Shown: positions 16,279 through 64,000 of the stretch, one piece after another
Layout of the letters: every line of letters begins with the position of its first letter
Position numbering within the stretch: position 1 is the first letter of the stretch
Assembly: GCA_030272155.1 (NCBI GenBank)
Contig: CP126193.1
Span: 7,564,001-7,628,000, forward strand
DNA length: 64,000 nucleotides
Direction of reading: 5' to 3'
Source: Tetradesmus obliquus
Taxonomy: Eukaryota > Chlorophyta > Chlorophyceae > Sphaeropleales > Scenedesmaceae
Notes under the pieces: generated by a model
What the model was told of the DNA's origin: nothing
Database searches by the model: none
Seen by the model: the letters and a program-made list of their open reading frames with translations, nothing else
Translations under genes and position numbers: made by a program

Positions 16279-19200
16279 GCTGCAGTGCCTGGCGACGCCA
16301 CCTGCATGCCTGCAGCAGCTACCTGCTGCTGCTGCATGCCTGGCTGCTGCTGCCCCATGACCCCAGGCTGCATGCCCGGCTGCTGCTGCATCGCTACCTG
16401 CTGCTGCGTGGGTTGCATGCCGGGCGACTGCTGCTGCCGCTGCTGCTGCTGCGTCATTGCTGCCTGCTGCTGCATCAGCATCATCTGCTGCTTCTGCTGC
16501 TCCGCTGTTAGCTGCTGCTGCACGCCGCCAGGCCTTGGAGCCATGCCCGGCACAGCAGCAGCGCCAACAGCACCCGGCGTGCCCGGCCGCACGCCGCCTG
16601 CTGCTGCCACTGCTGCCGCGCGCTGCGCAGCCGCTGCTGCTGCCGCCGCTGCTGCTGCTGCAGTGCCGCTGCTCTGGGCTTGCATGAGCTGCGCGGATGA
16701 TGTTGGCGTGAGTGCTGCTGTAGGTGTGACTCCTGTGAGGGAGCCCTGCCGCTGTGCCAAGGCCTGCATGTTGGCTGCTGTACCTACACACAATGCAGAA
16801 GTGAAGCAGAGCACAAGCAAGAGCAGCTGCTAGTGAGCCAGACTGTGTCATGCAATGCGTGGAACTTGCCAGTGGCTGCTAGCTTCACTGCATGTGTGAC
16901 ATTACGATGCATGCGCGCTCGTGCCGCATCTATGCAGATCGCAGTCAACAGCTCAAATAGCCTGCTTGCTGTCATACCCACACAACAAGTACCAGAGGCC
17001 AGCCATGACGTCTGCTGCTCAAGCATTCTTATGGCAAGCAGCAACAACAGCAACAACAACACCGCCATAGTGCTGCGCTCACCGGCAGAGGTGACCTGGC
17101 CAGGCGTGCCTGGCCGCTGCTGCAGCCCCATTCCAGGAGCAATGCCGCCACCCTGCTGCGCCGCCACAGCTGCTGCCATCGCCTGCTGCGCAGCCATCTG
17201 CTGCTGCTGCTGCGTGGCGTGCTGCGCCTGCACCTGCGCAGCAGTGCCCGGATGCATGCCACCCCCTTGGCTGCCCATGGAGCCCCCTGCGGCTCCTCCA
17301 CCACCGCTCATCGCCTGCTGGGCCATACCCGGCTGCTGCTGCTGCTGCTGCTGCGCCGCCTGCGCAGCCGCCGCCGCTGCTGCAGCCGCCTGCTGCTGCT
17401 GCTGCTGCGCCGCCGCCTGCGCCGCCGCCTGCTGCTGCCGCTCGATCTCCGCCTGGCGTGCCATTGCCGCCTGCTGCTTCTTCGCCTGCTCCTCTTGCTC
17501 GGTGATTTCCATGGGGCTGAGAATGCGGCCGCCCGACTGGTTGAGCGTGATCTGTGTGAGCTTGAAGTGCGAGGCGTGGGGCTCTGCCAGCTCCATGTTC
17601 TGCCTGCGTACGTTGTCGCGGTCCTGCAGCGCCCAACACAGCAGCACACACAAGTTGAGGCAGCAGCGGGCGCATATGCATCAAGGGCAGTACAGGCAAC
17701 TTGACCAAGTGCCGGATGTGTGCAGACAGGATGCATGTTATCAAACCAGCCCACGTGCAATTGCACCAGCATCAGCCACACTCGCTGTGCAGCCAAACCA
17801 CTTCAAACCATTCAGCGCAGCTGCAGCATCTGCCCCTTCTTCTTGGTGAATGCTGGTGCGAGCATGCGCCACAATCGCTGAGGAAGTCAAAGTAATCAAT
17901 ACCAAGGCTTCTCACCTGCAGCATCTGCGCCTTCTTCTTGGTGAACGCGGGCGCGATGGCACTAGCATCGCTGAGCAAGTCAAACCAACCAAATCAATCA
18001 TTATCAAGGCTATTCACCTGCAGCATCTGCGCCTTCTTCTTGGTGAATGCTGGCGCGATGGCGTCCACGTGGCGCTGAGCAAGTCAAACGGATCAAGTGA
18101 ATAATTTATACCAAGGCTATTCACCTGCAGCATCTGCGCCTTCTTCTTGGTGAATGCTGGCGCGATGGCGTCCACGTGGCGCTTGAGCACGCCCTCCGGC
18201 ACAGGCAGGCTGCGCATGATGAGCTCCTTGGCCTGGCGGCAGCGGCAGCAGCAGCAGCAGCGGCAATAGCGTTCATGTGGCAACTGATCGTTGAGCAGCA
18301 GCAGCAGCAGCTGCAGACGAGATGGAGCAGCAGCAGCGGGTTGATCCCACAGGGTATGCAGCATGATAACATGATTTCGACGCCCTTTCGATCGAGCGTG
18401 CTTGGGTACCTACATGCCTACATGCCATATTCAAACTCTCTGTCAACACCCGCCCACGTGCTGAAACACGTGCCGCGCTGTGCATGTTGCCTGGTGCTTG
18501 CTGAAGTTTGCCAGCAGCAGCAGCAGCAGCAGCAGCCAAGATCTGTGTGCTCACCTGGTGCTTGCTGAGGTTGGCCAGGTTGTTGTTTGCTGCTGCAGCA
18601 TCGCCCGGCTGCCCGTCCGGCCGCTGCTCGCCCGCCGCTGCTGCTGCTGCCGCCTGCGCCTCGCCTGACTTCATGATCTGGTTGTGGCGCTGCTTGCACC
18701 ACTCGCTGCGCCGCGTCACGCCCTGCGGCAGCAACAACGCAAAGACACAACATTTGTGTGAGTTGCAGGAACTGAGGGTGCAGCTACATACACTGCATGA
18801 GAGGGTGTGTGGCGGTATGCTACGCTACTCCAGAAAACATCTCAGGCACATCCTGCACTGCTTGCCGGGCCTGGAGGAGGCAACTGTACTAGCTGCAGCA
18901 CCCCTGCACCGCTGCCAACAACCACCCTCAGCCACCTCGCCTGCAGGGCGCTGCTGCTGCTGCATGTGGCCGTACTCCACCACCAGCGTAGCGCACATCT
19001 AATGCATGCATGCAACAACCCACAGCCGCACCTGCAGGGCGCTGGTGCTGCTGCAGGTGTCCGCAATGAATTGCCAGTTGTAGCCGTATTCCACCACCAG
19101 CGCCAGCACAACACATGTAATGCAGGCATGCAGCAACATGCAGCAGCTAGAGGGCAGACCAGACGAACTTCAACATGAACCTCACCTGCAGGGCGCTGGT

Positions 19201-19848
19201 GCTGCTGCAGGTGTCCGCAATGAAGTGCCAGTTGTAGCCGTATTCCACCACCAGCGCCAGCACACAACAAACACAAATACAGGCATGCAACAACATGCAA
19301 GAGCCGCACCTGCAGGGCGCTGGTGCTGCTGCAGGTGTCCGCAACAAAGTGCCAGTTGTAGCCGTACTCCACCACCAGCGCCAGCACAACACATGTAATG
19401 CAGGCATGCAGCAACATGCAGCAGCTAGAGGGCAGACCAGACGAACTTCAACATGAACCTCACCTGCAGGGCGCTGGTGCTGCTGCAGGTGTCCGCAATG
19501 AAGTGCCAGTTGTAGCCGTACTCCACCACCAGCGCCGCCAGCAGCGCATCCTCATCATAGCTCCAGGAGGCCGGCAGCAGCGAGCCAGGTGCATGCGGCA
19601 GCCCGCTGCGGGCGGGGCCCAGCTGCCCGTGCATCCTGCAGCAGCAGCAGCAGGCAGGCAGGCAGCAGCAGCAGCATGAAGCAAAGGAGGCCGGCAGCAG
19701 CGAGCCGGGTGCATGCGGCAGCCCGCTGCGGGCGGCGCCCAGCTGCCCATGCATCCTGCAGCAGCAGCAGAGAGTAAACATTGCAACAGCACATTAAGCG
19801 CTGCGAGGATGCATCAATGCAGGCGGGGCCCGGCTGCCCGTGCATCCT

Positions 19849-19884
<36 letters not shown>

Positions 19885-22800
19885 TGAAGCAAAGGAGGCC
19901 GGCAGCAGCGAGCCGGGTGCATGCGGCAGCCCGCTGCGCGCGGGGCCCAGCTGCCCGTGCATCCTGCAGCAGGGTTACAGACAGTAACATCACAACACAT
20001 GAAGCGGTGCGAGGATGCATCAATGCGGGCGGGGCCCAGCTGCAAGCGGGCGTGCAGCCGCAACAGTCACAATGTCTGCGCAGATTCAACTGCAACCGTC
20101 ACGCAAGCGCTTCGGCCACATGCGCACCGTGGCTGTCCCGGCTCTCCCGGCTTGGGCGCCATCTGGTTCTTCAGCCGCTTGTTCAGCCGCGGGTCCATGC
20201 CCCCATGCACCGCCAGGCTCATGTCGCTGCTGCTGCGCGGCAGGCCGCCGGCTTGCCCCGGCATGCCTCCCAGGCGCTTGTTGGCGGGCTGCTTGATGGT
20301 GATGCCGCCGCCGCCTGCCACGTAGTCCTCGTCATCGTAGTCCCGGTTCTGCAGGTTGCAGAAGTACCAAATAGATAAGCAAAAGTTACAAGGATTCAGA
20401 ACAAAGGTGGCATGCATGAGCCTGCCACGTAGTCGTTGTCATTGTAGTCGCAGTTCTGCAGGGATGCGGATGGACCAGCCCACACACCCTTATCAAAAAC
20501 ATGTCCAGTGCTGACTGGCGGGCAAGGCAGCTGGCGGCACGAACCTGATTGTCTCAGTCGTGGGTCTGGAGCAACCAACCACCACTATCCACAGATTATC
20601 CACAAAACAAACAACATCAGCACGCATGGTTTTGCATTCTCTGCCAAGCAGTGACAAAGGACAAGCTGCCTACACGACAGCATCTCGCCAGGCACCCCAC
20701 ATGCCCGTCAATCACACCGCCCCTAGGCGCAGTAGCAGCACACCCTAACCCCAGCAGGCCACATGCTAGTCGCTTCCAGCCCACCTTGCGTTTGCGCTTG
20801 TCCCTGCCTGCCGCATACGCCGCGTGCGCCGCCTGCGCCGCCTTGCTGCCCGCCATGTGCATGCCGGGCGTGGGCGTGCCCAGGCCCTCGTCCCCGAGCT
20901 CCTCCTCACCATCCACACGCACCTTGGGGCCCTTGCGCTTGCCGCGCTTCGCCAGCGCTGCAAAGCGACAAGTGCAAAAGCATTGAAGCAGGGGCAGAAG
21001 CAGAGTGATGTGACAGCAGGGGCAGAAGCAGAGTGATGTGACAGCGTGTGCAGGTGCTCTGTAAGGATTGTTACATGTACCTGCACCTTGGGGCCCTTGC
21101 GCTTGCCGCGCTTGGCCAGCGCTGCACAGCAACAACAGAGCAAGGCAGAGCAACAGCAGGGGTAGAGGCAGAGTGATGTGATGCGTGTGCAGGTGTTGTG
21201 TAAGGAGTCCTAGATGTCCGTGCACCTTGGGGCCCTTGCGCTTGCCGCGCTTGGCCAGCGCTGCACAGCAGGAGAAGGCAATGACACATTAACAGGGTAG
21301 CAATGTGTGTGCATGCATGAGCATGTGGTACAAGTATGCGGTGTACTTGTACCATATGTACAAGTATGGTGCAAGTACACTTGTCGTGTGTGTCGCATGC
21401 CTGGCAGCTGCCAGTCGTGCGCCGGGCCTGTGCCGTAGCACCTTGGGGCCCTTGCGCTTGCCGCGCTTGGCCAGCGCTGCAGACATAACAACGGAAAAAC
21501 ATGGCACAGGCACAGAGATGGGACAGTGCGTGCAGGTGTATAGATGAACAACTGCTTGGGGCCCTTGCGCTTGCCGCGCTTGGCCAGCGCTGCAGGGTAA
21601 AGAAGTGCGGCAAAAACAAGGTGTTGTAACAGTGTGTGACCCATGCAGCAGTTGCTGTGCTTGGCGATGAAGGACTGCTTGGGCCCGCTCCGCTTGCCGC
21701 GCTTGGCCAGCGCTGCAGATGTTAGGAAACAACAGCAGCAGCAGAGAGGCAAGGCAGTGAGACAGTGCGTGCAGGTAAAACACAACTGCTTGGGGCCCTT
21801 GCGCTTGCCGCGCTTGGCCAGCGCTGCAGGGTACAGAAGTGCGGCAAGAACAAGGTGATGTAAACAGTGTGTGACATGCAGCAGTTGCTGTGCTTGGCGA
21901 TGGAGGACTGCTTGGGCCCCTTGCGCTTGCCGCGCTTGGCCAGCGCTGCACAGCAGGAAAGGCAATGACACATCAACAGGGTAACAATGTGTGTGCATGC
22001 ATGAGCATGTGGTACAGGTATGGTGTGTGTCGCATGCCTGGCAGCTGCCAGGCGCCGGGCCTGTGCCGTTGCGCCTTGGGGCTCTTGCGCTTGCCGAGCT
22101 TGGCCAGTGCTGCAGGGAAATAAGTGCAAAAGCATATGAGCAACAGTGCTTGCCGCGCTTGGCCAGCGCTGCAGACAGTTGATGATACACGGATGTGTGT
22201 GTGTAAGGGTGAGGTGTGTACTGTAGGTCACAAAGACCTGTCGTGCAAGTCAGCAGGCAGCTGGTCCAGGCTTGGCAGCAGAGTGCAGATACCCATTGTT
22301 TGCAGGCTGACAGTGCAGTGCTGCTGCTGCACCACTGAGCGCACCTGCCGCGTCGTCCTCGGCCGGCTGCGGCTCCGCCTTGCGCAGCTCCGCGGCGCGC
22401 TGCTCCGCCTGTAGCCAGGCCAGCTCCCAGTCCGCCTCGTACTTCTGGCTGTACTGGTAAATGCGCAGCAGGCGCTGCACCTGCGGTTGCCAATGAAAAA
22501 ACAGGATGAACAGAAGGCGCACAGAAGAAGCAGGCTCAGCAAGCAGGTGCGTGAAAGTACTAGCAGATGCGCAGCAGGCGCTGCACCAGCGGGGTGCAAA
22601 CAGCGAACAGGACGGACAGACAAGGGGCACAGAAGACGCAGGCTCAGCAAGCAGGTGCTGGTAGATACAGCAGGCGCTGCACCTGCGGTTGCCGGAAAGC
22701 ATGTGTGGAAGGTGCACACAAGAAGCAGGCTGGCTCAGCAAGCAGGAGCGTGGGCGTACAGGTAGATGCGCAGCAGACGCTGCACCTGCAGGGGGCCAGT

Positions 22801-26153: not shown

Positions 26154-29100
26154 ATGGCAGCTGCAGCACAGCTGCACTATGCCTCTGAATCCGAGGCAGA
26201 GATGGCATACGACGCGGAATACCAGCCCGACCACACCTTGCTGCTGGGTGGCTGCCTGTGCGTGGTGATGGCAGCATACATGCTTGTGTCAGTGCTGCCC
26301 TGGCCATGGCTGCAGCGCAACAGCAAGAGCAACGGGAAGCAGCAGCGGCACAGGTGGGCAACAATAGTCATTCATGGCACAGCTGCTGAGCTGCAACTGA
26401 GCAACAGCAGCATGGCAGCAAAGGAACACACCTGCACAGTCTGCTGTGTTGCAGGCGACCATGTTGCGGACACAGTAACAGCAAAGTGCTGCTGATGTGT
26501 GATACAACAATTTGTTGCTTCCTTGTACCTGAGTACGTGTGATTGCTGGTACAAGTGTGCAACAAGCTGCTACAGTATGCTACGCAGCAGACCTGCAACA
26601 GCTGCCAGCTGCCCAACTGCCCGCTTGTTGCCTGCTTGAACCCCTCCCACCAGCACAACGTGTGACGCAAAGCCAACCTTTTTCTTTGCCTCCACATTAG
26701 CTGATAGATGATGCTCGACTTCACTGCGAACCGTTGAGTTTCATGTCTGTGGAATATCAACCCAGAAATTCTGCTTCTGCCCCCGCAGGGTCCAGGTAGA
26801 CGAGGCGTCTGCCCGGCCTGCATCACCAGTGCATCGCCGCCCACCATCACCAGAATGCACGCAGACCTCCCCACGCCGCGCAGCAGCAGCAGCAGCACCA
26901 GCAGCAGCAGCAGCAGCAGAGCCTGCGGCAACGCTGCAGACTGACTTTATCTCGGCTATCAGCGACCACGCGCCTGGCAGGCCGTTCAGGTTCAGGGCAC
27001 CTGACTTTGATGCAGACGGTGCGGTGTGGGCCTCGCCAGACGCGCCGGCGCAGAAGCAGCAGGCCCAGCAGCAGCAGCAGCAGATGTTTACAACTCCGCC
27101 GCCATCAGCCAGGCGCCAGCAGCGGCGGGAGCAGCAGCAGCAGCAGCCACCTGAGGAGCAAGAGCCGGAGTCAAGTGAGTGTGGTCCTGATAGTGTGCCT
27201 CAACAGCACAGCCAAAAGAGCCCTGCTTCAGTAACAGAGCTGTTGCTGGGAGTGCAAAGCTGCAACGTATCCTTGCACAGCTGTCGGCTTGTCAGCCGCG
27301 TGCCCTGCACGCCGGCTTGCAGTGCAGCGCAAGCTAGTCCGGTGAAGCCTACGCCAGCTGCTTTTTTCATTACAATACGCAAATCAGCAGCAGCAGCAGA
27401 AGCACCACCTTGCGGGTGACTCTACTGCACACACGTTGTCAGTAACTGCCTCCCTGCACCTACTGTCCTGCAACCGCTGCAGGCTGGGAGCCCACGCTGC
27501 TGTCGTCGTGCGCTGCCGCCTCGCCCTACATCGGCAGCGTGGAGGCGCTGCAGCGCTCGCCCGCCTTCCGCAGCCACATCAGGTGCGGCAGATGGCTTTG
27601 TTGCTATGGCTTGATGGCGTTGATGATACCTTTTGCAGCAGCGCGCATTGTTGCTGGCAGCTGTCAACATTGCAGTAAGTCCCAAAATGCTTTAGTGCCG
27701 TGGGGCCTCTGTGGGGTGATGTTGCTGAGGCAGTGCAGCTGTGCCTGGTGACAGGGCTGGCTGCCAATTGCACATCTGCATGCTGGGCCTGCCATTGCTT
27801 GCGCTGTGTGTCAAATCATCATCAGCTGACGTCCCCTGTTACATCATGTCGTGTTGGTATGCTTGCCTTCTATGTGCTGTGCTGCTGCAGCCAGGTCAGG
27901 GGCCGGCGGCTGAACTACGAGACCGCAGAGTCGCACAAGCTGCGCGTGTACAAGGTGGGCTGCTGTGTTGGTCGTGCTTTGTGTCTGGACGTGTTTCAAT
28001 GCGGAGTAACCAGGGGCTGCTGTTGTTTAAACACAAGCTGCGCGTGTACAAGGTGGGCTGCTGGTGGGCTGCCTGGACATGCTTGGATGCAAAGTGTCAT
28101 TTAGTAGTTACCTGAAGCTGCTGTTGTTCAATCACAAGCTGCACTTGCACAAGCTAGGCGGGGCTGCATGGGCAGCTGCTGGTAGGCGCTGCAGGGGCCA
28201 CATGCCCTGCTGTGCCCGTTGGTGCGGCAGGCTACGCTGCAGCTGCTCAGGGCCCAGGTTCGCTTATGGTCAGGCTGCACCTGCTGCATGTAGCGCGTAC
28301 GGCCCGCAGGCGCCAGCATGCTGACTGCGGCACATGCATACACTTGCCATGCACAGCAACCTCTGGTTGCTGCTGTTGTCATCTCCTGAGCTGTAGCGCG
28401 CCTGTACCATCATGCATCTTCACGGTGGCTGCAGGTGGTGCGCGAGGTGGAACCATGCACTCACTGTCGGCCAAGCACTTATTGTTGTGTTGCTGCACTG
28501 GCTGTGCTGTGTGTCCGCTGCAGGCGCTGCGAGAGGTGGACCCGCCCAGCTTCCAGCAGCTGTTCAGCAGGCAGGACGTGCAGGTGGGTGGGTGTTGACA
28601 TTTGCAGGGAGAATGATGTGCAGTAGCTGAATGCAACACAATGCTCACTCACATGTCTAGAAGGGCCTCCGCCACCAAGTGTCAGCAGCTGTTCAGCAGG
28701 CAGGACGTGCAGGTGGGTGGGGGTAACAACGGCTTTGCGTTGCTGAATGTGGGGGACGGGGGTGGGGGTATAGGTGGGTGGGAGGGGGCTGCAGTATGCA
28801 AGCTTCAGGAGTTGCTGTTCCGTAGGTGCTGACTGTGTCGCGCTGCAGTGCAACAGGTGCAACAGGTTGGTTGAGCACCTTTGTTTTGCTGAACTACACG
28901 GGTGATAGCAGAAGCTTTTGCAGCACATGCAACCAGATGCAACATTTGTCTCATATGCGTGCGCATCCACTAATCCCATCCCAACTCTGCATGCATAATC
29001 CTTTCACGCCTCCTCACTGAGGCTTAGTGTCGCCTCTCGTGTCTCGCATACTTCCCTGCTCTGCCCCACCATACTTGCTGCTCCTGCAGGAATATGACGA

Positions 29101-34025: not shown

Positions 34026-34548
34026 CTACAAGCTCTCAAACCCAGCAGTGGCTGCAGCAGGCTGCCACAGCTGCTGACCCTGCGGTACTGCGGACTGCTG
34101 CTGCTGCTGCTGCTGCGGGATGGCCTTCCGCCTGATGTACCTTGCAGCATTGCCGTTGCTGCCGTTGCTAATGTTCACCATGCGCTGCTGCCGCTCCTGC
34201 GGCTGCACGAAGCGATCCTGGTCTGCGGCGCCGTCATGCTGCATGCTACTGCTGTAGTGCTCTAAATGCTGCTGCTGAGTACCTGACAGAGCTGGTACCT
34301 CAGCAGCTGCTGCAGCTGCCGCAACTGCTGCCTGTGTATGTTGCTGGATCAGGCTACTGTCGCTGCTGCTGCCTGAGCTGTCTTTAGCCCCCGCCTCAGC
34401 TGCTGCAGCAGAACTAGGTGCTTCTAATCTGTCAGGCAGCAGCAGCAGCTGCTGCTGCTCCTCAAGATGGCTGTGCAAACCAACCAGCTGCTGCTGGTGG
34501 TGCTGGTGCTGCTGCTGTACACTCTGCTGATGTGCCTGCTCAAAGACA

Positions 34549-34580
<32 letters not shown>

Positions 34581-37573
34581 AACAGGCTGCACGTACCTGC
34601 CCCAGAGGTACCCTCCACCAGCAGGCAACTGCTGCTGCAGCTGCTGCTGCTGCAGCTGCGGCATCGGCTGCATGTGTTCACCCGACCCCAGCCCAAGCTG
34701 CTGCTGCTGCAGCTGCTGGTGCTGTTGTAGTTGCAGCCGCTGCCGCTGCAGGTGCTGCTGTTGCCGCTGCTGCTGCTGCCACTGCAGCGCCCGCTGCTGC
34801 AGCACCAGCGCTCGGTGCTGCTGCAACTGCAGCTGCCGCTGCCTGTGCCTGTGCTGCATGTGCCGTAGGTGCTGGTGCACCAGCTGCTGATACTGCAGCT
34901 GCAGCTGCTGCTGCTCCTGCGGGCCTGGATGCAGCAGCGGCCCTGCCGCCTGCTTCATCTGCAGCTGCCAGTGCTGCCGCGCCTGCTGCCCTTGCTGCTG
35001 CCGCCCCTGCGGCTGCCCCTGCTGCTGCTGTTGCTGCTGCTGCGCCTGCCATTGCTGCTGCTGCTGCCGCACACGCTGCGCCTTAAGCTCCCACCAGCTG
35101 CTCCAGCCAGCAAACTGCTGTTCGAATGCAGCACCTGGCAGCAGCAGCGCATCTAACAATGTGATGCTACCTGCCTGCTGTGTGGCCACTAGAAACTCGA
35201 GCCGCTCAAACCTGCTGTAGTTCACAGCAAAACCTTCCTCGGCTTGTGGCGGCCGCAGCGCCTGCCACTGCTGCTGCCAGGAAGGAACCAGCTGCAATGC
35301 TGCCTGCAGCCGCGCGCCGCGCACCAGCAGCTTGGCTGCGGGTGCCAGCAGCAGCCGGCCGTTATGCGCTGCCATGCCGAAGACGAAGCCCTCGCTGCGC
35401 TGCAGCAGCAGCGGCAGCAGCTGGTAGCAGATGCGCACATGCTCCAGGTTTCGGCGCAGCAGCTGCGGCGTTTTGTACACAACCACGCGCCCGATGATGT
35501 GTGCATCCTTGTGCATGATTGCCATGAGCACCTTTAGCTTGTTGTTCATGATGCGAGGCGACATGAACAGCGCACTGGGGTATGCCGCAACCAGCCGCTG
35601 CATGCACACAGGCTTGAGCCGCAATATGCTGCGCAGCGCATCCGCGCGCTTCTGAATGCTTGGAGCTGAGTCGCTCAGAAGCTCTGGCGCCTGAGCAACC
35701 ATGGCAAGCGCGTGTACTGGCGTGACGGCAAACCAGCTGCACAGGCCCTGCAGCCTCCGCAGCAGCCCTGGCAGCGGCCGCGCCAGCAGCGCCGGCGCGT
35801 TACACGCCGCAGCAACCACGCGTGACGCGCTGCTCAGCTGCAGCGCATCAGCGAGCTGCTGCGCGGCCTGCAGGATGGCCGCAGCCGGCCGCAGCAGCAG
35901 CTGCAGCGGCCAGCGGCTGCACATGAAGGCTGCTGCTGCAGCGCTTACGCCGAGGGTGTCTGCCAGCTGCTGCACGTGTGCATGTACATCAGCAGGCTGC
36001 AGCACAAGCAGCTGCGGATGCTGGTCCAGCAGGCGCTGTGCATCTGCTGATGGTAGCTGCAGTGCGCTGCAGAAGGCTGCTAGCTGCGCGGGTGTGCAGG
36101 CGCGGGCTGCAGGTTTGCAGGACGGCAAGCAAGCAGATAGGTTTGCACGTCAGATAGGATTGCGCGCAGGGCTACGATAAGGATCAAAACAGGGTAGGTG
36201 CAGCGGCTCTTGCTGATACTTTCTGCAGTGCCATGATTGGCCTGTGGATGCTGCAACACCCAGCCTGTCCTGTCATGACTGCCGGCAGGGGGATGCAGAA
36301 GAACCTGGCACAATGGCATCGATTGCTAGCTGCAAATGCTTCGCTGCTGCTGAACACGTGTATACTACACAGCGCTTAGCCAGGCGTATGCTACCAGCTG
36401 CAGAACACACACAGCAAGCTGCCTGCCTCGTGCGCAAGAGGCATTCAACACAGATGCACATGTACAACCAGCTGCTGCTGTTGCTATGCACTTCAGCCAG
36501 CCAACAGCAGCAGATGTGTTGTGCCCAGCCCTTGCTCACCTCCTGCTACTGCAGGCCCCTCTAACGGCCGCACCAGCTGCAGCCCAGAAGGCGATCTGCT
36601 GCTGCTGCTGCCGCCACTGCTGCCGCCACTGCTGCTGCTGCTGCCGCCTGCTGGCGACCGTAGCAGCTGTGCGCCGTGTTGCTGCTGCTGCTGCTGCACA
36701 TGCGTGCCTTCGTCTGCTGCTACATGTTGGCTGCAGCCATTGCTACTGGAGCTTGGGCCTATGCTGGCTAAGCTAACTACTGCAGAGCTGATGGCGTGGT
36801 GCTGACTGTCACTGCTACTGTACAATTGGCCAGCACTGCTGGTGATGCTACCTGAAGTCGATGCTCTGCTATTGCTCCTCAGCCGCTCCAAGTGCTGCTG
36901 CACCTCTTGCTGCTGCTGCTGCTGCTGCTGCTGGCCATTTACCTGCCTATGGAGCAGCGGCAGCGGCAGCTGCTGCAAGTCTTGCTGCTGCAACTGCACT
37001 GCCTCAGCACAGCCGCTGCTGCGCTGCAGGCCTGGCCAGCCATTGTGCAGCTGCACGCCGTTACGGCTTGCAGCAGCCTCCAACGGCTGCAGCACATGGC
37101 CTGCAGGCTGCTGCTGCTGCTGCTCATCTAGGTGCTGCAACTGCTGCTGCGCTGCTGCGCTGCTGCAGGGCTGCCTGTTGCCTGCAGTGCTTGCGAGCTC
37201 CTCGACAGAAGCTAGCTCGCCTGCCAATGCAACCTCTCCAGCTGCTGCTGCTTTGTGGACACCTGCAAAGTAGCACGTACAATACGTTTGATATGTTTCA
37301 CTCCAATGAGACCTGTCATGTGCACAGACAACCAGCTTGCAAGCTGATGTGGAGCCCACAGCTTTGCTGCTGCTGGGAGGTGTCTCACCTGGCCGAACGA
37401 CCAAACGTGCCTGCCTGCTTGGTGCTGGACGATCGTAATGAACCTGAACATAACAAACAGAGTCACAGGCTGATCCTGCTTGTCGCTGAGAGCTAAGACG
37501 GGGCCCTGCAGCGAGTGCACACCTTGCTCCTGCTTAAGCGAGGGCAGCTACAATGTCCTGCCTGAAAAGCCAT
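34026..37573 (-). CDS. mTERF-family organelle protein with long Gln-rich tail
   Basis: Four exons: 37523-37573, 37389-37410, 36540-37262 and 34026-36106; 958 residues. The third exon is Gln/Ser-rich. The mTERF part begins near residue 266 (TPAQLAAFCSALQLP) and runs to about 600. Its repeating ~30-residue helical units carry the family's L-x-x-x-P signature (LLDQHPQLLVLQ, MVAQAPELLSD, LVAAYPSALFMSP, VVVYKTPQLLRRN). mTERF proteins bind organelle DNA or RNA and act in transcription, splicing or ribosome assembly. The N-terminus read here (MAFQAGHCSCPRLSRSK, then ARLVVRPG) is basic and Ser/Arg-rich like a transit peptide. It depends on a 22-nt exon chosen by phase and is the least certain part. 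After residue ~610 come about 300 residues dominated by Gln with Leu and His, unusual for the family. Confidence 0.75.
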
Positions 37574-38822: not shown

Positions 38823-40907
38823 TCATGCCCTGCTCTTGCGCTTGCCCCCCAGCAGCACACCCAGCACGATGGTTGTCACTGCTAGCGCAATTCCACCCAC
38901 TGCCATGAGCTGCGTGTTGGGCCCAGACTTGCCTGTCAGCGCAGCCTGCGCAGCAGCAGGCAGCAAGGCAGCAAGCACAGCGCAGCAAGACGGTCAGTTA
39001 GCTTGAAAGAAATGCATTTTGCTGTTGTTCAAGTGAGCATGGCAGTGCGCAGCTACAAGGGATCATTTGCGCTGATGTCGCATCAGTTCATTGCAGCGCT
39101 ACAGCAGGTACAGAGGACACAAACTGACTACCTATCATAAGCCCTGCATACATGCCTGCTCTACACATGCCTGGCCTACGCGCTTGCATGCACAGAACAC
39201 ACACCCCTCCCCGCCTGCCGCATGACAGTACAGCAAGCACACCCATTGACACAGCAGCAGCAGCAGCAGCAGCAAGCAGTCGCTCTCCCGGCAAGTCAGC
39301 AAGACAGCAGCAACCTCCGCCACCCTGAAGCAGCAACCGCACACGCAGCCAGGTGTAGCCGAATTTCTTGCAATGCATGATGCGTGCTGGCGACCTTGAC
39401 AACACAGTGTACACACAGGCATGCAGGACACACTCGCAGCCATGCCACAAGCACACGCCCCCCTGGCACACCTGCGCCCCCTCAAACCAACTGCAGCTGC
39501 CACATGACCAACTTGAACTCCAAGTGCGTGCCTGGTTACTGCCCTCGCCCTCTGCCGCGCCCTGCGCAGCGCCGTTGGCCTGCTGCGCTGCTGCAGCGAG
39601 GCTGCTGCTGGCGGCCTTGCCTGCTTCCTGCGCCTTGGCCACTGCTGCAGCAGCAGTCTCCTTGGCCTGCATGAATGATAGTGCAAGGTGGTGCAGCAGG
39701 GCACGTGTGTGGGTGTAAGAAACCAACAGCCAATGCACCTCAGAGACATGCACCAAAAGCAGGGAGAGTCTACAGTGCACTAGGCAGCCGCGCAGGGGCA
39801 TACATCGAGGTGCTGCTGCAAGGCAGCTGCAGCGCATGACGTGTTGTCATGCCATGCAGGTGGGCACAAACGCAGCAACAGCACACCGCAGGTCTGCGCA
39901 CCTTGCCCACTGCTGCTGCTGCCGCCTCGCCTGCCTTATGCCCTGCCTCAGCAATCGCTTCCTTTGTGTGCTGCGCCGCATGCGCCACTGCATCCTTGGC
40001 TGAGGCCGCTGCTGCTGCTACTGGCTGCTCCGATCCCGCTGCTGCTGCCGGCTGCTGCGCTGCTGCTGTTGCTGGCGGCGGCGGCGCTGCTGCTGCTGAG
40101 CCTGCCGTCAGCAGGCTGAACTGCAGCAGCTTGTTGCCATGCTTATCCACCTCATCACCATACTGCAGCTGCGAGCTGAAGCCCTCCTTCACAAACCTGC
40201 AGTAACAACAGCACAAGCGTTATAACACGTATTCAAATGTGAGGGTCTCCCACCGTGGCGGCTTCTGGAAAGAGACAGCTCAGCTCAGCACGTGCTTCCG
40301 GCACAGTAAAGCCGACACACAGACGTCTCACGAAGCACCAGAAGCAGGCGGATAATGCTGCATGCACGAGCTGAACATCCAGCGCACAGCAGCGGCGCCA
40401 CGACACTGCTGCTTCGCGAGCCAGCAGCCCGCCGCTGCTGCTGCCGCTTCCTTTGCTGCTGCTTCACCAAGGCAGGCAGTCATGCAACACCCGCAGGGCC
40501 ACTGTGCACGTGCTGCTCGCGCCGCTACGGCATTGTTGCTTTGTGCTAGGCAGACGTTTTGACGCTGCTGCTGCTGCTATTGCTGCCGCAGAACCAAGGC
40601 AGCCAGAAAACCAAGTCCTCCTGCAGATCCTGCGTGGCGGCTGTGCACATAAAACCAACCAGCTGTGCCGCGCTAGCTCTGGCTACTCTGTATTCTGCCG
40701 GCAGGTCCTGGACGACGGCTGTGCAGGTACCAGTAAAACCGCCGAATGCCAACAGCTGCCAAATGACAACAGCTGCGGCCACTCACGCCTGCAGCCACGC
40801 CTTGTCGCTCTTGGTCGCCTGGCACACGACCAGCCGCGCTGTGGGGTCCGCGGGGGCCATGGCGCTGAACCACGCAATGATGTCCCCCAGGTGCTCACGG
40901 ATGGGCT

Positions 40908-40946
<39 letters not shown>

Positions 40947-43662: not shown

Positions 43663-43699
<37 letters not shown>

Positions 43700-43983
43700 A
43701 GGTCTGCAGATCGTGGATAGCTAGGTGACAGCACACTGCAGCTCATCACTGCACTGCTGCTGGGCCCTGCATGACCCGCTGCTCTGCTGTGCTGCCTGCT
43801 GCGCAGGATCATACGCTGTGGGCCAAGCTCAACCAGAGCTCTGTGCTCAAATCGATCATGGCGCAGAGCCGCCGGCCGCTGATGGTGGTCAAACACTACT
43901 CGCCAGGGTTGACCGATGACCTGGCAGCGGCACCGGCAGGCTGTGGGGCTGAGTCAGCAGCAGACTGGCTGGCAGGCCGCTGA
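42556..43983 (+). CDS. Universal stress protein (USP) family
   Basis: Four phase-consistent exons: 42556-42724, 43056-43143, 43479-43632, 43807-43983; 195 residues. The N-terminus NIVVAVDASDAG begins the USP fold (first beta strand with the conserved Asp). AVQYAVSELVRPGDVLHVCHV is the first helix and second strand. VETVGASADDIAAL-type and KTCEEVAADMLVVAHQEK segments follow, and the core ends in SIMAQSRRPLMVVKH, the usual last helix and strand. In the family a G-x2-G-x9-G(S/T) loop near the end binds ATP. It is not clearly present here, so this may be a non-ATP-binding type. Plant and algal USPs are small soluble proteins linked to stress responses. The last ~100 bases of the coding exon are tandemly triplicated (next entry). 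Confidence 0.75.
43668..43699. repeat. CTG microsatellite in a USP intron
   Basis: An uninterrupted run of CTG triplets lies inside the third intron of the USP gene, about 35 bp after the donor. Confidence 0.85.
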
Positions 43984-44181
43984 TGGTGGTCAAACACTAC
44001 TCGCCAGGGTTAACCCATGACCTGGCAGCGGCACCCGCAGGCTGTGGGGCTGAGTCAGCAGCAGACCGGCTGGCAGGCAGCTGATGGTGGTCAAACATTA
44101 CACGCCAGGGTTGACCGATGACCTGGCAGCGGCACCCGCAGGCTGTGGGGCTGAGTCAGCAGCAGACCGGCTGGCAGGCAG
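43879..44181 (+). repeat. 101 bp tandem triplication across the USP stop codon
   Basis: Three units start at 43879, 43980 and 44081, each opening with CTGATGGTGGTCAAACA. Unit 1 is coding. Its frame ends at the TGA formed where unit 1 meets unit 2 (GGCCGC TGA TGG). Unit 3 ends in GGCAGCTGAGGGG, which probably preserves the ancestral stop. The shared CTGA at both ends suggests duplication at a short homology. A period of 101 would shift frame if read through. Confidence 0.9.
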
Positions 44182-45744
44182 CTGAGGGGCGGTACGTGCT
44201 AACAGCAAGTGCTTTTAAACGTCTGCATGCGGCTCGTCAGCTATCGACTGCGCCCCACAGGCCACTGCATTCTGCAGCTGGTTGAGCCAGCCGCGTCTGC
44301 ATGTGAGCACTTACGATAGCAGCGGCAGCGAGGGGTGACTATCAGCATACTGCGTGCCCTTTTCTGCCGGGTTGCCTGCTGATGCGCTACTGCTGTACTG
44401 CATACGGCAGTACCACCGCCTGGCTAGTTGGCAGCATTGTACAGCATGCTGTTTGTTTCTGTTTTGTAGGTGAGGGAAGCCGGCAGGGTGACTCTTATTC
44501 ATCGTGTTGCCAACCCAATCAGTTAGCATTGGAAGATTTGTCACATGGTTGTACAGAGGTTGTTGACGTCACCAGCACACCAGCTGTGTCTGGCATACGG
44601 CCAGGCCAGCATCAGCTGCTAAACGCTGAGCTGCCACACCAGCATAAAAGACCCCAAGAAGCACGCTGCTGGTCAGGAAACCAGCAGGTGCTATACGCTG
44701 GTGGTGGCTTGAGTTGACGCTGCAGTGCTGAAGCTCTACGCTCCAAGCACGCGGGGGAAAAACCGTGCATTGCCATTGGAAGCCTGATGACTACACATTT
44801 GGGAGGCGTGCTGCTAAACAATTTGGGGGCGTACCTAGAGAAATACAATACAAACCACCAGGCATTGCCCATCCACATGCAGCAGCGTGAGCTTGATATC
44901 TTGGGGCCAGTGCAGTTCACATATCATGATGTGAGTAGTTGTACATAAAAACTGGTGGGCATGCATTGCAGCGGCGCATATATGTATTGTGCCGCCACCT
45001 TGTTGTGCAACCTTGAATGCAATGCAAGGACTGCCAATGCAAGGGTGGCGGCTGTATGCAATTTTGTTGGCAGCCAAGTTGGGTGCCCTATATAGGGCAG
45101 ATGTATCTGCATCCTGCAAGCATGCCGTATGCACGCATGCATGCGCGCAGCACGTCATGCAGGCCATATCAGTCCACGTTGTTGTGGCAAAGGTGAGATA
45201 TGCGAGCCTGCACTGCAGCCGCCAGCACAACACAGCATGTGTAACATACACGGCCTGATGAGGCATGAGGCCAGACCAGCACGACTGCGTGTGTATGTCT
45301 GGCAGGTAACACCGCCATCATGATGCACACATGCAGCCAGATGCCCTGCATTGTGCTCCAAAAACAGGACCATGCAGCATGCGCATTCTGCCTGCATGCA
45401 GGCTTGTCCACAGAGCGCTAAGCGGCATGCATTGTGCTGCTGCACGTTATTTCAGCATACATAACACCTGCTATGTACAACATGTCCTCGTGCACCCACG
45501 TCTCATGTTTCCTCCTCCGCAACATGCGTGCCAATGACAGCTTGGGATGCGTGGATGGTGCGAGCCTACAATACACGGGGCTGCAAATAGCGGTTTAAAT
45601 ATATGTACAAGCTGAGACCCAGCGCACACAGTACGGTACTGTACGGTACCAGGAGCGGGCCAACGCAGTGCATGGGCTGCGCCTGCTGTAATGGCTGGTG
45701 CCGCGCGTCAACCTAGTTATATCTCTGAATGCATCATCCCTTGA
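43984..45744. other. Convergent intergenic region
   Basis: About 1.75 kb between the USP and subtilase genes, starting with copies 2 and 3 of the 101 bp repeat. A stretch at about 44725-44932 reads like protein in two plus-strand frames and ends at a donor-like CATGAT|GTGAGT. No start, partner exon or family was found. The motif GGTACTGTACGGTACC lies near 45633-45650. Confidence 0.5.
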
Positions 45745-48016: not shown

Positions 48017-48049
<33 letters not shown>

Positions 48050-50587
48050 TCTCACCAGTCGTTGTGGTCGTTGATCTGGCTGAACGACGCGCGCTTGCCG
48101 GACCAATCCACAGCCGCCACAGACACCACCTCTGGCCACGCAGCAGGGTAGCTATACACCGCACCCTCCATTGCACCGTTGCCGGCAGCTGCGATCAGCA
48201 GCATGTCATTAAACCGCTCGCGGGCCAGGGTTTTGACTGCCTCCCTGACAAGTGGTGTGTCACCCTCTGCTCCGAATGACATAGAGACCACCAGCTTCAT
48301 ATCGGGCTCGCTTTTTGTGATACGGTGTCCGTCCAACGCGTGCACACACTCGGTGATGGCCACAATGACGTCACTCATGCTGAAAGTGCCCATGGGACCA
48401 AAAGCGTTGTAGCTGCGGGTGCAACAGAGGGGCAGGCAGAAATCTGGTGTCAGAGGCATGTGAGGTGAGTGCAGGACAGTGGGGTGGACTGTCAGCACAT
48501 CTGCTGGCAGGGAAGCTGCGCATGTACTGCCAGTGCATACTGCGACGTACAGCTGCGCAAGTTGCCTAGCAGCCTTGCAGCCAAGCTGCTGCTTGGCTGT
48601 CAATTCATGTCAAAAAACAGTGAAGGTCTGCAGCACTCACTGGAACAGCTGTGCACCCTCAGCAGACACTCCCACAATGCCGTGTGACAGCCAGCTAAGC
48701 TACTGCTCAGCTGCTGCTTGATTGTGATTCATGCTAATTGAGGAAACGTTCTGGCACTCACTGGAACAGCTGTGCGCCCTCAGCCGACACTCCCACAATG
48801 CCGCGGCTGTTGCGTGCTGCTGCAATGGTGCCGCTGGTGTGTGTGCCGTGGCTCGACCAGTCCTTGGACCAGGGGAACTTGCAGGAGGTGTTGCTGCCAT
48901 CCACGCGCAGCGACTTGGGCACGCAGCCAAAGGTGTTCTCTGTTGTTGTCAATATCGTGTTTTGCCAATGGCAGCAGCAGCAGCAGCAGGGTGCATTTGT
49001 ATTGGTGAGAGAGCAGCAAACAGGACTAACAGGCATCAGTGTGGTTGCAGCAGGCGTTGCGATACTGAAGGCAGCAACCTAACGGTGGCTAGTTGCCAGC
49101 ACAATGCCGTGAGGACTCGGAGGATGTGTAAATGCGTTCTTATACAATGCTAGCACACTGCACATATGCTTGCACTTGTTTTACAGCTACACCAAGCGGC
49201 AGGCGGTGCTGTGCTGCTCATCCTGCAGGGCTGCTCTTCCACGACAGCTGTTGCTGCTGCAACCAAGCACGTGTAATGATGAAGCTAGCACACAACAAAC
49301 TAGTGGCTGCAGGGCTCACCTGAGAACTCTGGGTTAGTGATGTCCAGGCCTGTGTCGATGACGCAGTACAGCACCTTGGACTTGAATGCCTTGCTGACCT
49401 CAATCATGGCAGGCTCGATGGCCTGCACCATCTTGATGCCTGTGGGGAGATGTATGCAGGCCAGCAGCAGCAGCAGCAGGGGTGCTGTTTCAGGTACGGC
49501 ATGGTACGTGGAGCGACTCATGGCAACTTGCGGAGTGATGAGACATATCAGCCGCCCTAGGCTTGTGCGCTGTTCCACAGCAAGTGCCGCGGCTGCGTCA
49601 GCAAGGAACGCAGCGCCAACTCACAGTTTGAAGCAGCAGCCGCCACTCACCGTAAGGCGCCTCCTCAACAGTCTTGCCAATAGCCCCGTCAGGTCCGGGT
49701 GAGCAGGAGGATGACTGTGCCGGCTCTGCTGCAGCAGCAGCGCCTGCCTGCTGCATCTTGCGGTTCAGCAGATACACGGGCACATCTTCCTCAACAATGG
49801 CACCTGGAATGGCCATTGTTAGACTCTGAATGGTGAGCTCAGCTGGGTCTGCAGCAGCAGCAACCACAGCCTGCTGTGCAGCACGTGGGCCTGGGAAGGT
49901 TGGCTGGAGGCCTGCTGCACACCTAGCAGCATCGCTGCTGCTGGCGTAGAGAGGCGTGTTTGCAGATGTGTCACCAGTCAAGGCACAGGGTGCGGCAGCT
50001 GCTGCAGGCTGCTCGTCAGCAGTGTTCAAGCCTGCCGTGACGACCTCGCCCACGGTTGGGAGAGGTGTGGTGCTGAAGCTGACGAATTTGAACCTTGTGT
50101 CGATGTGCTTTACGTAATAGCCTCGCTGCCTGATCACATCGGCCACCTGCGCAATGGAGCAAGCAACACCGGCACAATTGTAAGTTTATGCAAAGTTATA
50201 AGTTGACATTCGGACGAAGATAAGTACATCTCTGTGTTGAAGAGCGATTTCCCTCCTTTTGTTGCGCCAGGCGGGTGCTGTGTGGCGCGAATGCCTATTG
50301 TGCTCTGGCACAGCCAGTGGTCAACTGTAGTTGTCAAATTATACTTTCAATTACCAACTACAAGTGTTTATACAGACCAAAGGACAGCCAGGCCTAGCAT
50401 GTTGCTCATGCAGTTCCACTGCCACTGATCATCGCCTGCTGGTATTTCATGAAGGGGTCCTCACCTGCTCAAGCCTGGATGGATCTGCTACCCGAACTGT
50501 AAAATGCTTGGACTCGCAAACTTGCGCGGCAAAGAGAAGGCCGAACAGCACAGTCAGTGCCAGGCAATTGCCTCTGCTGATCTTCAT
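45745..50587 (-). CDS. Secreted PA-domain subtilisin-like serine protease (copy 1)
   Basis: Nine phase-consistent exons: 50465-50587, 49651-50146, 49320-49439, 48762-48939, 48056-48412, 47613-47830, 47154-47259, 46576-46789, 45745-46335; 800 residues. The N-terminus has a signal peptide (LALTVLFGLLFAAQVC) and a pro-region-like segment. The S8 catalytic residues are visible: Asp235 (CVIDTGLD), His277 (HGTHTSGT), the oxyanion Asn (IAAAGNGA) and Ser603 (MSGTSM). A protease-associated (PA) domain sits between Asn and Ser (KICLIQRGENTFC, GIGAIIYGRDD). After the catalytic core come TPTAAGVAGLVWSAH and a Ser/Thr-rich beta-type C-terminus of ~165 residues. Subtilases of this kind are secretory-pathway or extracellular proteases, activated by removal of the pro-region. 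Intron positions match copy 2 (53021-57772), with which it shares ancestry. Confidence 0.85.
48636..48690 (-). repeat. Exon-end/donor copy, subtilase 1 exon 4
   Basis: The end of the His-containing exon (VSAEGAQLFQ, donor CA|GTGAGT at 48762) is repeated about 120 bp downstream in the intron with an intact CA|GTGAGTGC. In that copy the upstream codons have diverged. Confidence 0.85.
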
Positions 50588-60363: not shown

Positions 60364-63300
60364 TCAGCCCATGGACTGCCGTATCTTGATGAGCCGCTTG
60401 AGTGCTGTCAGCCACGTGCCGCACTCGTCCCAATCGCTGGCGGTCAGCTCCACCTGTAAAATCACAACGCAGCATCAGGCAAGGAGCAGGGTGACAAAAC
60501 AGTCAGGATGGTGAGTGGCAGGCGGTGCATTGGATGCCGCTTCAAGGGTGCAAGCCTCTGCAGTGCCCCATGTGTGCTGACAGAAGCAAGCCAAGCAGGG
60601 ACCAGCCATGACTATGCCCTCAACTGCAAAGAACTGTACTGGCGAGCGCGTCACCATCAGGCGCCTGAATGAACAACAGCCGCGCACCTGCAGGTGCTGC
60701 GCCGCGGGCCAGTTGCCTGCGTCCAGCGCGGCGCACATCTGCAGCAGCTTGGCCACCACGTGGGACGCCACCTGGCCCTCGTTCAGCTTCCAGAACAGCC
60801 CGCCCAGCCGGCGGCTGTTGTCGTCCATCTCGCGCTTGCGCGCTGCACAGACAGAAAGGGACAAATTAGAAAAGGACAGGATACAATGGTGTGTTAAAAA
60901 GGCTGTGCCGCTTGAGGTTGGGACCAAGAACAGATCAGAAAGCCCCCCAGCCGGCGGCTGTTGTCGTCCATCTCGCGCTTGCGCGCTGCACAGACAGAAA
61001 GGGACAAATTAGAAAAGGACAGGATACAATGGTGTGTTAAAAAGGCTGTGCCGCTTGAGATTGGGACCAAGAACAGATCAGAAAGCCCCCCAGCCGGCGG
61101 CTGTTGTCGTCCATCTCGCGCTTGCGCGCTGCAGTCATTGCAATCAAGACACAATATAATATCAGCACATAACAAGGCAGGAAAGCAAGAATGCGGCTGT
61201 TGTCGTCCATCTCACGCTTGCGCGCTGCAGCCTTTGCAATACAACACAACACAATGCAGCAGGTGACGAGGCAGGCAAGCGACTGGGCGGCAAGTGACTG
61301 AGCGGCTGTTATCATCCATCTTGCGCTTGCGCGCTGCGTGCTTTGCCATGTAACACAATACAACACAGCAGATAACGAGGCAAGCATGTGAGTGGGCGGC
61401 TGTTCAGGTCACAACGCCGTCCAGCAACAGCAACACTGCAGCATCATGCACTTGACTACATCCACCCTGTGCCAGCCCCGCACCTGGCGTGTTGGCCAGC
61501 GGCATGCACGCGTTAAACAGGTTGTTCAGGCTGCCCAGCACCGCCTGCTGCTCCCCAGGCACCTTGCTGACGTCAGCAGTCGCCATGCTGATGTGCGCAG
61601 GCGGCCCAGCGGGAGCCGCCGGCGGCTGCTGCCGCGCCGCCGCACCCCCAGCGGCAGCGCCATACGCACCGCTGCCGCCACCACCACCCATCATGCCCCC
61701 AGGCACTTGGGATTGGCCCATTCCCATTCCTCCCATCTGCATCTGCGGCTGCATGCCGCCAGCAGCACCCATCATAGGCGGCCCACCACCCATCTGACCG
61801 CCGGGAGCCGCACCGTAGCCGCCGGCAGCGGCTGCGGCGGCTGGCGGCGGCTGCGCAACTGTTGCGGATGCTGTCGGGGTGAACATCGCGCGCGGCTGCA
61901 CGGCCTGCTGCTGCTGCTGCTGGCTGCTGCCGGTTGAGGTGGGCATAGCAGGGGTGAAGGCTCCCGGGACGGCAGCGGGGACGTGCTGCGCGGGGGTTGC
62001 TGCGGGCGCTGCAGGTGTGAAGGTGGCCTGTGGCGCAGGCACCGCCTGGCAAATGCATCGGAAAGACAGCATAGGCCGGCACGAGTGAGTTGTTTTGAGT
62101 TGCTGTCAAGGTGCACAGACATGGCAAGAACCAATGCAGCTGGCAAGCGCTGTACACATGACAGCATCATCCAGCACAGCAGCGCCGCCGCAAAGATGCT
62201 GCGTTGGCATGGCACAACACAGTGCTTTTGCTGCAGCCATCTTTTGCTCAACACCCACAGCTAGAGAGCTCACCTGGCCTGGTGCGCCAGCAGTGCGTTT
62301 CGGCTGGTACACCGACTGCTGCGCAGGCTGCTGCTGTTGCCCATACCCTGCACCATACGCAGCCTGCTGCCCGTACGCTTGCTGCTGCCCGTAGCTTCCT
62401 GCAGCAGCAGCACCATACCCAGCAGCAGCGCCGTACTGCTGCTGCTGCTGTTGCGCCGGCGCGTAACTCTGCTGCTGCGGCTGCTGCTGCTGCCCGTACG
62501 CGCCGGCAGCCGGCGCAGCACCGTAGCCTCCCGCTTGAGCAGCGCTAGCGCCATACCCGCTGCTAGCTGCTGCTGCCCCATACCCCGACCCAGCTGCTGC
62601 TCCGTAACCGCCAGCAGCAGCGCCGTACCCGCTGCCTGCTGCAGCAGCACCTGTAGCCCCGTATGCGCCGTAGCTGCTCTGCTGCTGTGCGGCGCTGCCG
62701 GCTGCTGCCGCAGGTGCTGCGCCGTACTGCCCCGCATATGGGTTTGCTGCAGCTGCCCCGAATGTGTTGCTCCCGTATTGGCCTGCGCTGGGAGTTGCAG
62801 GCTGGCCGCTGGGCTGCACATTCTCCAGCTGGAAGGGGAAAGGCGGCGCAGCCACGTCTGTTGGCACGCTGGGGGCGCCACTCCTGCATCAGCAGCATAG
62901 ACACGCACACACAAAGGCCAGAGCAAAGTTTGTGTCTGTTTGTGTCAGGCATATGTTTAGGCACAGCTCGCAGTGTTCGGTCAAGGAAGGACACCAACGC
63001 AGACGCAGCGGGGGCACATGGCAATACGCGGTTGCAGGGGCTGCCGCTGCCGGGCGCCTGCCACAGCCATGTTGGTGCTGTCAACTTTACAACCAGGCAG
63101 CATGCACCTGCATTGTGAAAGCCCCACAATTCGCACCTGTAGATCCTGTCCTTGAGCACCGCCACGCTGGTGCTGCCTTTGCTACAGCCTAACCTCAGAT
63201 GCCCAACGCTGATCGTACGTTATCAACACAGCGATCCTCTAGCGCCACACCCCACCTGTAGATCCTGTCCTTGAGCACAGCCACGCTGGTGCTACCTTAT

Positions 63301-64000
63301 GTATGGCCTAACAACAGACACCCGATGCTGGCCATGCAATGTCATTGCAGCCAACCCTAACCTCCCCAGCCAACCCTAACCCCGCACCTGTAGATCCTGT
63401 CCTTGAGCACAGCCACGCTGGTGCTGGCCTCCCCGGGCACCATCTCCAGGTAGCGCAGCGCGGCACCCAGCCGGCCCTGCAGGAAACAGACACAGCACAT
63501 CGTGAGAAGCAGAGAAGCAGGATAACATCTGCAATGAGATGCGAGGCATGGCGCAGGCAGGTTGTGAGTGTGGCCTTGGTTGGCATATATCACAACGCAG
63601 TTTGTTTGATTATTGACTTTTTGAGGACGGGCAGCAGCCATCACAGCAGCAAGGTGGACACGCAGGAACCCCGCTAACCAAACGCAAACGTTCAAACATA
63701 AACAACACGGCTGAAGCAGCGCCAGCAGCAGGCAGCGCACGCCAACGCACCTGCGTGGCCAGCGTGCCGGCGTATGTGGTCACGATGTCGGCAAGGCTGC
63801 TGCTGGCTGCCGCTGTGTTGGTGGCCAGCCCCAGCACCACGCTCTTCTCGATGACGGCCTGCAGGCACTCCACGCCGCTGCCAGCAGAGCTGCGCAGGCC
63901 CTTGCTCCAGTAGGCCACAGCCTGCACGCCAGCAAAAGTAGAAGATGATGAGAAAAAAGGAGGCGCATGGTTACATGCATGGTGTGCACCGGCAACAGGC
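60364..64000 (-). CDS. SEC31: SEC31, COPII outer-coat subunit (3' part; 5' end outside window)
   Basis: Six exons visible: 63751-63921, 63388-63476, 62274-62883, 61484-62045, 60688-60842, 60364-60453; 558 residues of the C-terminal part. The N-terminal WD40 region must lie beyond 64000. AVAYWSKGL, AVIEKSVVLGLAT and IVTTYAGTLATQGRLGAALRYLEM ... LKDRIYR match the alpha-solenoid end of SEC31. A long Tyr-Gly/Gln/Ala/Pro-rich linker follows, as in SEC31's proline-rich region. The end is the conserved C-terminal helical domain (GLFWKLNEGQV, LLQMCAALDAGNWPAAQHLQVELTASDWDECGTWLTALKRLIKIRQ). SEC31 pairs with SEC13 to form the outer cage of COPII vesicles at ER exit sites. Two of its introns carry exon-edge arrays. 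Confidence 0.88.
60803..61340 (-). repeat. Five-copy acceptor/exon-start array in SEC31
   Basis: The exon 60688-60842 begins CAG|CGCGCAAGCGCGAGATGGACGAC (ARKREMDDNSRRLGG). The same acceptor plus exon start recurs upstream with equivalent starts at 60985, 61128, 61224 and 61333. The first two are ~143 bp apart and nearly identical along their whole length, including the intron. Splicing to an upstream copy would read ARKREMDD ... GGFLICSWSQ and soon stop. Confidence 0.9.
63135..63420 (-). repeat. Exon-end/donor array in SEC31
   Basis: The exon 63388-63476 ends in codons for VLKDRIYR with donor AG|GTGCGG. Copies of this end lie downstream near 63258-63290 (AG|GTGGGG) and 63137-63170 (AG|GTGCGA), at ~120 bp spacing. 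Both keep the donor. Confidence 0.88.

Follow-up and report, generated by a model that had tools for sequence, protein, structure and literature searches.

Exon edges and their splice sites recur in adjacent introns of Tetradesmus obliquus: a possible case of junction-linked duplication

Exon-edge arrays at the locus

The stretch considered here is a 64,000-nucleotide window of the green alga Tetradesmus obliquus (contig CP126193.1 of assembly GCA_030272155.1, forward-strand positions 7,564,001 to 7,628,000), in which short segments spanning an exon edge and its splice site are repeated in the adjacent intron. Such junction copies occur in an EAF1-like gene, a membrane-protein gene, a subtilase gene (subtilase 1) and a SEC31-like gene, and a related array is found in a USP gene. 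The names EAF1, SEC31 and USP are labels from an initial annotation that used the sequence alone. Pfam assigned Peptidase_S8 (E 4.6e-37) and PA domains to the subtilase model and a Myb-like domain to the EAF1-like model (first 814 of 1,377 amino acids scanned), and the scan of the SEC31-like model gave no match. The guanine-plus-cytosine content of the window, about 57%, equals a value given for the species in PMC5966456.

The EAF1-like gene, on the minus strand, carries copies of both acceptors and donors. Its acceptor array at 20898-22173 consists of the original exon start (20898-20963) and nine copies in the upstream intron, with identities of 0.88-0.98. The core is TGCAG plus about 35 nt of exon start, and seven of the ten occurrences differ by at most one mismatch over a 40-nt core. 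The distance from one copy start to the next is about 70-216 bp, and the spacers are unlike in both length and sequence. A second acceptor array (22451-22796), placed by inspection, has four members with an exon start of the type CAG|GTGCAGCGCCTGCTG, and the reading frame continues through an acceptor that the gene-finding model described below overlooked. The acceptor array at 19576-19969 comprises the original (19576-19641) and three copies, and the acceptor at 20289-20461 has one copy (20420-20461, identity 0.88). On the donor side, the array at 18935-19523 holds the original (19458-19523) and four copies in the downstream intron (identity 0.89-0.98), and that at 17818-18184 holds the original (18119-18184) and three copies (identity 0.93-1.00).

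The membrane-protein gene, on the plus strand, shows two donor copies, one at 28032-28058 (array 27895-28058) and one at 28683-28718 (array 28524-28718); in the latter, 42 nt match at 98% between unrelated flanks. Subtilase 1 (minus strand) has a donor copy at 48635-48682 (array 48635-48821, identity 0.96). In the SEC31-like gene, also on the minus strand, an acceptor array at 60783-61337 contains the original (60783-60848) and four copies, the nearest two of them young (period 143), and a donor array at 63132-63447 contains the original (63382-63447) and two copies; these share 98% identity across some 42 nt, and their flanks have diverged. The USP array (43871-44188, plus strand) is a 101-bp unit repeated 3.1 times across the stop codon, which makes it a coding edge with no splice junction.

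Self-comparison and aligned copies thus recover 11 junction arrays and the USP array, in agreement with the approximately eleven that the initial annotation had described. Its further statement that acceptor copies always lie upstream and donor copies always downstream is true only by definition, because the member that continues into unique exon is the one named the exon. Several window arrays are not clean tandems, as their uneven spacing and differing spacers indicate (the EAF1-like gene is an example). A weak subtilase match at 40437-40479 (79%), a 25-nt match at 18490-18514 and three mirror entries, in which a copy is labelled as the exon, were not counted among the 15 window entries.

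Excess of copies at splice junctions across the genome sample

The survey covered 314 kb, about 0.3% of a genome of 104,662,953 bases in 17 contigs. It combined the window with 250 kb drawn from every contig: each of the 17 supplied a 10-kb stretch at 1.0 Mb, three further stretches came from 3.0 Mb and five from three random places. Genes were modelled with a purpose-written 15-state hidden Markov model (HMM), trained without supervision on the window and the 250 kb, which yielded 57 genes with 395 introns, whose consensus is CAG|GTGAG-like at the donor and TGCAG|G at the acceptor. The HMM overlooked the USP gene as well as the acceptor noted above, and it predicts gene ends less reliably than junctions. 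Low-complexity segments were filtered from the repeat scans, which left 238 of 580 repeat pairs. Most counts exclude the first two gene models of locus L019. This region (L019 1-5782 in gene orientation) consists of satellite-like arrays with periods of 279 bp and 345 bp that the HMM reads as chains of small exons; further along the same locus (6648-10000), a gene model resembles what we take, from its protein, to be a hAT-type transposase.

Copied junction segments typically comprise 35-85 nt of exon together with the splice site. Among exons of at least 150 nt, intron-side copies were found at 53 of 285 junctions (28/145 donors and 25/140 acceptors), again leaving aside the L019 satellite models; the corresponding counts were 67/299 donors and 62/299 acceptors for exons of any length, and 19/109 and 15/101 for exons of at least 200 nt. 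By comparison, 94 of 1026 intron-interior segments had a copy with any partner, and 49 of 1026 with an intronic one. The ratio of junctions to intron interiors is therefore about 2.0 (1.8-2.4 depending on the exon-length cut-off), or about 3.9 against intronic partners. Only two of 82 start- or stop-codon edges had a copy. A scan of 42-nt segments for same-strand copies within 800 bp (score at least 22), which takes in the L019 satellite models and copies labelled as exons, found them for 92/312 donors, 85/312 acceptors, 57/517 intron-interior, 37/355 exon-interior and 4/179 intergenic segments. The copies are not chance matches: at the thresholds used, comparison with the reversed neighbourhood and with the opposite strand gave no match for any of 1,675 test segments. 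In total, 133 arrays with 249 copies were recorded in 33 of 60 intron-bearing gene models and at 20 of 26 loci. The window itself is unexceptional, with matches in 19/108 junction windows versus 132/476 at the other loci without L019.

An annotation-blind test gave the same picture. Self-BLAST, a complexity filter and grouping produced 115 arrays outside the satellite, and the null expectation was obtained by random placement of the same spans. Arrays at solid junctions, defined as overlapping an exon that extends at least 45 nt beyond the array and as reaching the intron, numbered 82 of 115 versus 30.3 expected. All other classes fell below expectation: intron-only (6 versus 12.6), intergenic (7 versus 23.0), exon-only (7 versus 17.9), small exons inside the array (9 versus 18.5) and other (4 versus 12.6). 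By inspection, two of the six intron-only groups (22450-22793 and 43873-44185) resemble an exon-edge array and the USP stop-codon array. Tandems that were full-length and at least 80% identical comprised 26 junction, four intron-only, three intergenic, two exon-only, two ambiguous and one other. The recurrent, genome-wide amplification of exon edges that the initial annotation had proposed is thus borne out within the 314-kb sample. That annotation had also allowed for assembly artefacts, and the divergence of the copies and their uneven spacing argue against such an origin.

Shape of the copies and the D1 protease gene

Offsets between copies lie mostly at 80-165 bp. Among the 28 events with an exon of at least 150 nt and an offset of 75-180 bp, the copied exon portion reaches 85 nt at most and tends to be shorter than expected from random breakpoints (Kolmogorov-Smirnov p 6e-5); over offsets of 75-700 bp its median is 48-66 nt. 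Recently expanded arrays show an edge-spacer-edge-spacer-edge layout, and in six of nine recent arrays that were deemed independent by inspection, the outermost copy has a boundary no more than 5 nt from the splice site. Homology on the intron side ends within 12 nt in 0.44 of 78 cases versus 0.28 of 196 simulated ones (exon divergence at most 0.08). Flank homology is undetectable in 24 of 85 close copies (bootstrap 0.21-0.37), compared with 41/249 and 40/220 in simulations. The behaviour of flanks and edges represents a moderate departure from plain tandem duplication. Of 94 pairs of neighbouring copies, 47 have homologous spacers (z at least 5), and introns bearing arrays are somewhat longer than others (median 368 versus 256 bp; n = 40 and 130; p 0.04).

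One gene allows comparison with a solved protein. Six exon stretches of the D1 protease gene match the photosystem II D1 protease structure 1fc6/1fc7, an entry that presumably derives from Scenedesmus obliquus; five match without mismatch and one with two mismatches. Twelve of its exon edges were tested, the stop codon and eleven junctions, and one of them has a copy, an acceptor located 91 bp upstream that scores 2.63 versus 0.54 for the acceptor in use. The solved protein contains the downstream copy only, and the sequence following the better-scoring copied acceptor is absent from it. Junction copies are apparently spliced out.

Origin of the junction bias

These observations may be brought together in a model, to which we give an even chance on the sequence comparisons, in which short-range duplication linked to splice junctions is hidden by splicing, amplified in register and then left to decay. 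Direct duplication at short range, with offsets mostly of about 80-165 bp, would repeatedly copy a junction segment into the flanking intron; the segment would usually consist of the splice site and some 50-65 nt of exon edge, and donors and acceptors would both be affected. Splicing would normally use the edge beyond which unique exon sequence follows; the intron-side copy would then cost little, and recombination between the exon-derived repeats would add further copies. Exon copies longer than about 85 nt and offsets below about 75 bp are scarce, perhaps since such copies would be recognised as exons or would compete with the original. An origin in splice- or transcription-linked duplication is favoured over a function of the copies. 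A more specific version can be offered only tentatively: junctions may be hotspots of short-range duplication in this lineage, where a process coupled to splicing or transcription would copy about 55 nt of exon edge, together with the donor or acceptor site, into the neighbouring intron, and where the choice among near-identical sites would depend on more than local strength.

Several points weigh against junction-linked duplication. The analysis is based on genomic DNA of one species and on self-made gene models, in which 64 of 135 nearest copies were labelled as exons by the HMM. Clearly homologous flanks, which fit ordinary tandem duplication, accompany 52 of 85 close copies. The youngest full-length duplications, of at least 90% identity, are few (11 junction, one intron-only, two intergenic, one exon-only, one ambiguous and one other), and therefore biased origin and biased retention are not separated. 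Changes private to the copies show a mild third-position excess, with a ratio of 1.67 (95% interval 1.26-2.13), which leaves room for weak constraint on some of them. Finally, the neutral simulations described next span a limited range of parameters, chiefly regarding much faster intron turnover.

The alternative that survives best, although we consider it doubtful, is purely neutral. Random tandem duplications would arise with no link to splice sites; exonic ones would be purged, junction ones would be spliced out, and the constrained exon partner would keep the latter recognisable. The largely neutral decay of the copies agrees with this account, as do the depletion of exon-only arrays (7 versus 17.9 expected) and the homologous flanks, of the kind left by tandem duplication, in 26/39 and 26/46 close copies. 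It was simulated with random tandem duplication at the observed offsets, constrained exons, free introns, purging of exon-only events, indels and balancing deletions. The base model gave ratios of junctions to intron interiors of 0.40-0.66, and variants with homology-driven duplication and deletion or with gene conversion from the exon gave 0.09-0.62 and 0.42-0.64, respectively. Against intronic partners, the homology-driven and gene-conversion models gave 0.39-1.38, compared with the observed value of about 3.9. In the 314 kb sampled, junction copies are denser than random tandem duplication produces, both in placement (82 versus 30.3) and in ratio (about 2.0 versus 0.09-0.66), which is contrary to the outcome that the initial annotation had named as fatal to its proposal. 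Start and stop edges also speak against neutrality, as they are equally protected on one side and yet carry copies in only 2/82 cases.

Since every neutral simulation fell below the observed ratio, hiding by splicing combined with slower decay fails to explain the concentration at junctions in the models tried. The earlier suggestion that splicing hides these duplications from selection is in line with the D1 protease case and with decay that is largely neutral; it is insufficient by itself, because copies in intron interiors should then pile up as well, yet they are scarce. A further candidate, in which a protected exon acts as a seed through homology-driven expansion, deletion bias and gene conversion from the exon, was rejected, the parameter ranges simulated having failed to yield the bias.

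Functional status of the copies

It is unlikely that the copies are functional in general, whether as decoy or back-up splice sites or as small alternative exons retained by selection. Some features are in keeping with such a role. Copy sites score at least as high as the exon-adjacent site in 68 of 133 arrays (44/70 donor and 24/63 acceptor arrays); since copy sites often score so well, interference with splicing is possible and the choice of site is a real puzzle. Certain cores, such as those of the EAF1-like gene, are near-identical while their spacers diverge. A small excess of donor-like sites (log-odds 2) exists at the far end of acceptor copies (7/62 versus 38/1716 in controls), although a comparable share is seen for the original exon (0.10 of 62). 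Where an array has two or more copies, private changes in the intronic ones occur at rates of 0.055, 0.060 and 0.096 at codon positions 1, 2 and 3, the weak third-position excess considered above; changes private to the original exon number 16, 13 and 66. The array set used for this analysis retains some mirror entries.

Other evidence runs against function. The GT dinucleotide is kept in 41 of 58 intronic copies and AG in 54 of 72 (copies not reaching the junction, 4 donor and 18 acceptor, were left out), which is no better than at neighbouring exon positions (0.81-0.93 per base). This result gives no support to the decoy splice sites that the initial annotation had offered as an alternative, with interference in splicing still possible. 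Donor copies are not closed by a second splice site: at their far end an acceptor is present in 6/73 versus 92/1716 controls, without excess. Over the whole set of arrays, 46 of the 55 gaps found in copies would shift the frame, their length not being divisible by three, and the D1 protease protein lacks the copy.

Two stronger proposals were discarded. Strong purifying selection on the copies was suggested by an unpolarised third-position ratio of 3.0, but this value also reflects how the original exon itself has evolved, and polarising the changes removes much of the signal. The reading of copies as mini-exons, prompted by the SEC31-like gene, fails in general, most copies having no second splice site. 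Overall, the majority of copies resemble noncoding relics, and a few may be exceptions.

Intron turnover and relation to known systems

Another account, which we regard as distinctly improbable, treats the bias as an artefact of turnover: intron-derived sequence would evolve far faster than exon-derived sequence within the same intron, and only repeats of exon edges would remain visible. This would account for the fall in identity past the splice site (from about 0.9 to 0.5-0.7) and for the scarcity of intron-only arrays, and some spacers do differ greatly in length. In the youngest in-register expansions, however, spacers diverge no faster than exon edges (0.02 versus 0.02-0.08 at locus L008), and simulated indel rates of up to 1.0 left the ratio unraised.

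The closest known process is a form of intron gain outlined in PMC3443670 and PMC2891723, in which tandem genomic duplication of an AGGT or proto-splice site inside an exon creates an intron with matching ends. As outlined there, it shares with the present arrays a local tandem duplication near splice-like words that splicing renders harmless; it differs in making a new intron, whereas here existing junctions are copied into existing introns. Recent intron gain of this kind is very improbable as the source of the arrays: the raw event near CAG|GTG words is the same and one 79-bp array at locus L017 has the required layout, but donor and acceptor match within 4/379 introns (three from the L017 array) versus 3/966 mismatched pairs at a score of at least 15. 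The L017 array (5797-6157), with CAG|GTGAG in each unit, is the sole place with the layout of AGGT intron birth.

Other systems resemble junction copies in part. Intronic minisatellites are tandem repeat arrays whose units expand in register, and some of the arrays described here likewise appear to expand in register in units of about 80-165 bp with drifting spacers; unlike minisatellites, they concentrate on splice junctions and have one member fixed as a coding exon. Tandem exon duplication, including that of mutually exclusive exons, also repeats exon sequence within one gene, whereas here a single exon edge is copied and most copies have no second splice site. Introners are genome-wide, recurrent and linked to introns, as the junction copies are, but the latter appear to remain at their own junction: a genome-wide search with one array (19024-19536) returned three matches, all in its own region. 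In the open-licence PubMed Central literature, no paper was found to describe junction copies in its title or at the start of its abstract, which supports their absence weakly.

Implications

If nearly one-fifth of junctions carry copies of themselves, this alga would constitute a natural experiment in splice-site selection, with the spliceosome facing near-identical candidates some 100 nt from each other. It would likewise be one on intron growth; a table in PMC5966456 gives a mean intron length of 462 bp for T. obliquus versus 230-302 bp in four other green algae. Such a pattern, if true, would suggest that local DNA duplication is in some way tied to splice junctions. In practical terms, ab initio gene finders will add false small exons here, as the labelling of nearest copies by the HMM illustrates.

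Other repeats in the window

Three further repeat features were observed. A unit of about 590 bp occurs three times at 912-2685, with copies 77-84% identical, and overlaps plus-strand open frames of 156-205 amino acids, three of which had no match in Pfam. At 12339-12801, outside predicted genes, a 154-bp unit is repeated 2.7 times at about 98% identity, a recent tandem duplication. CTG/GCA triplet repeats are dense in many window exons of several genes (for example 16248-17442 and 34487-35067), where they encode polyglutamine and polyalanine.

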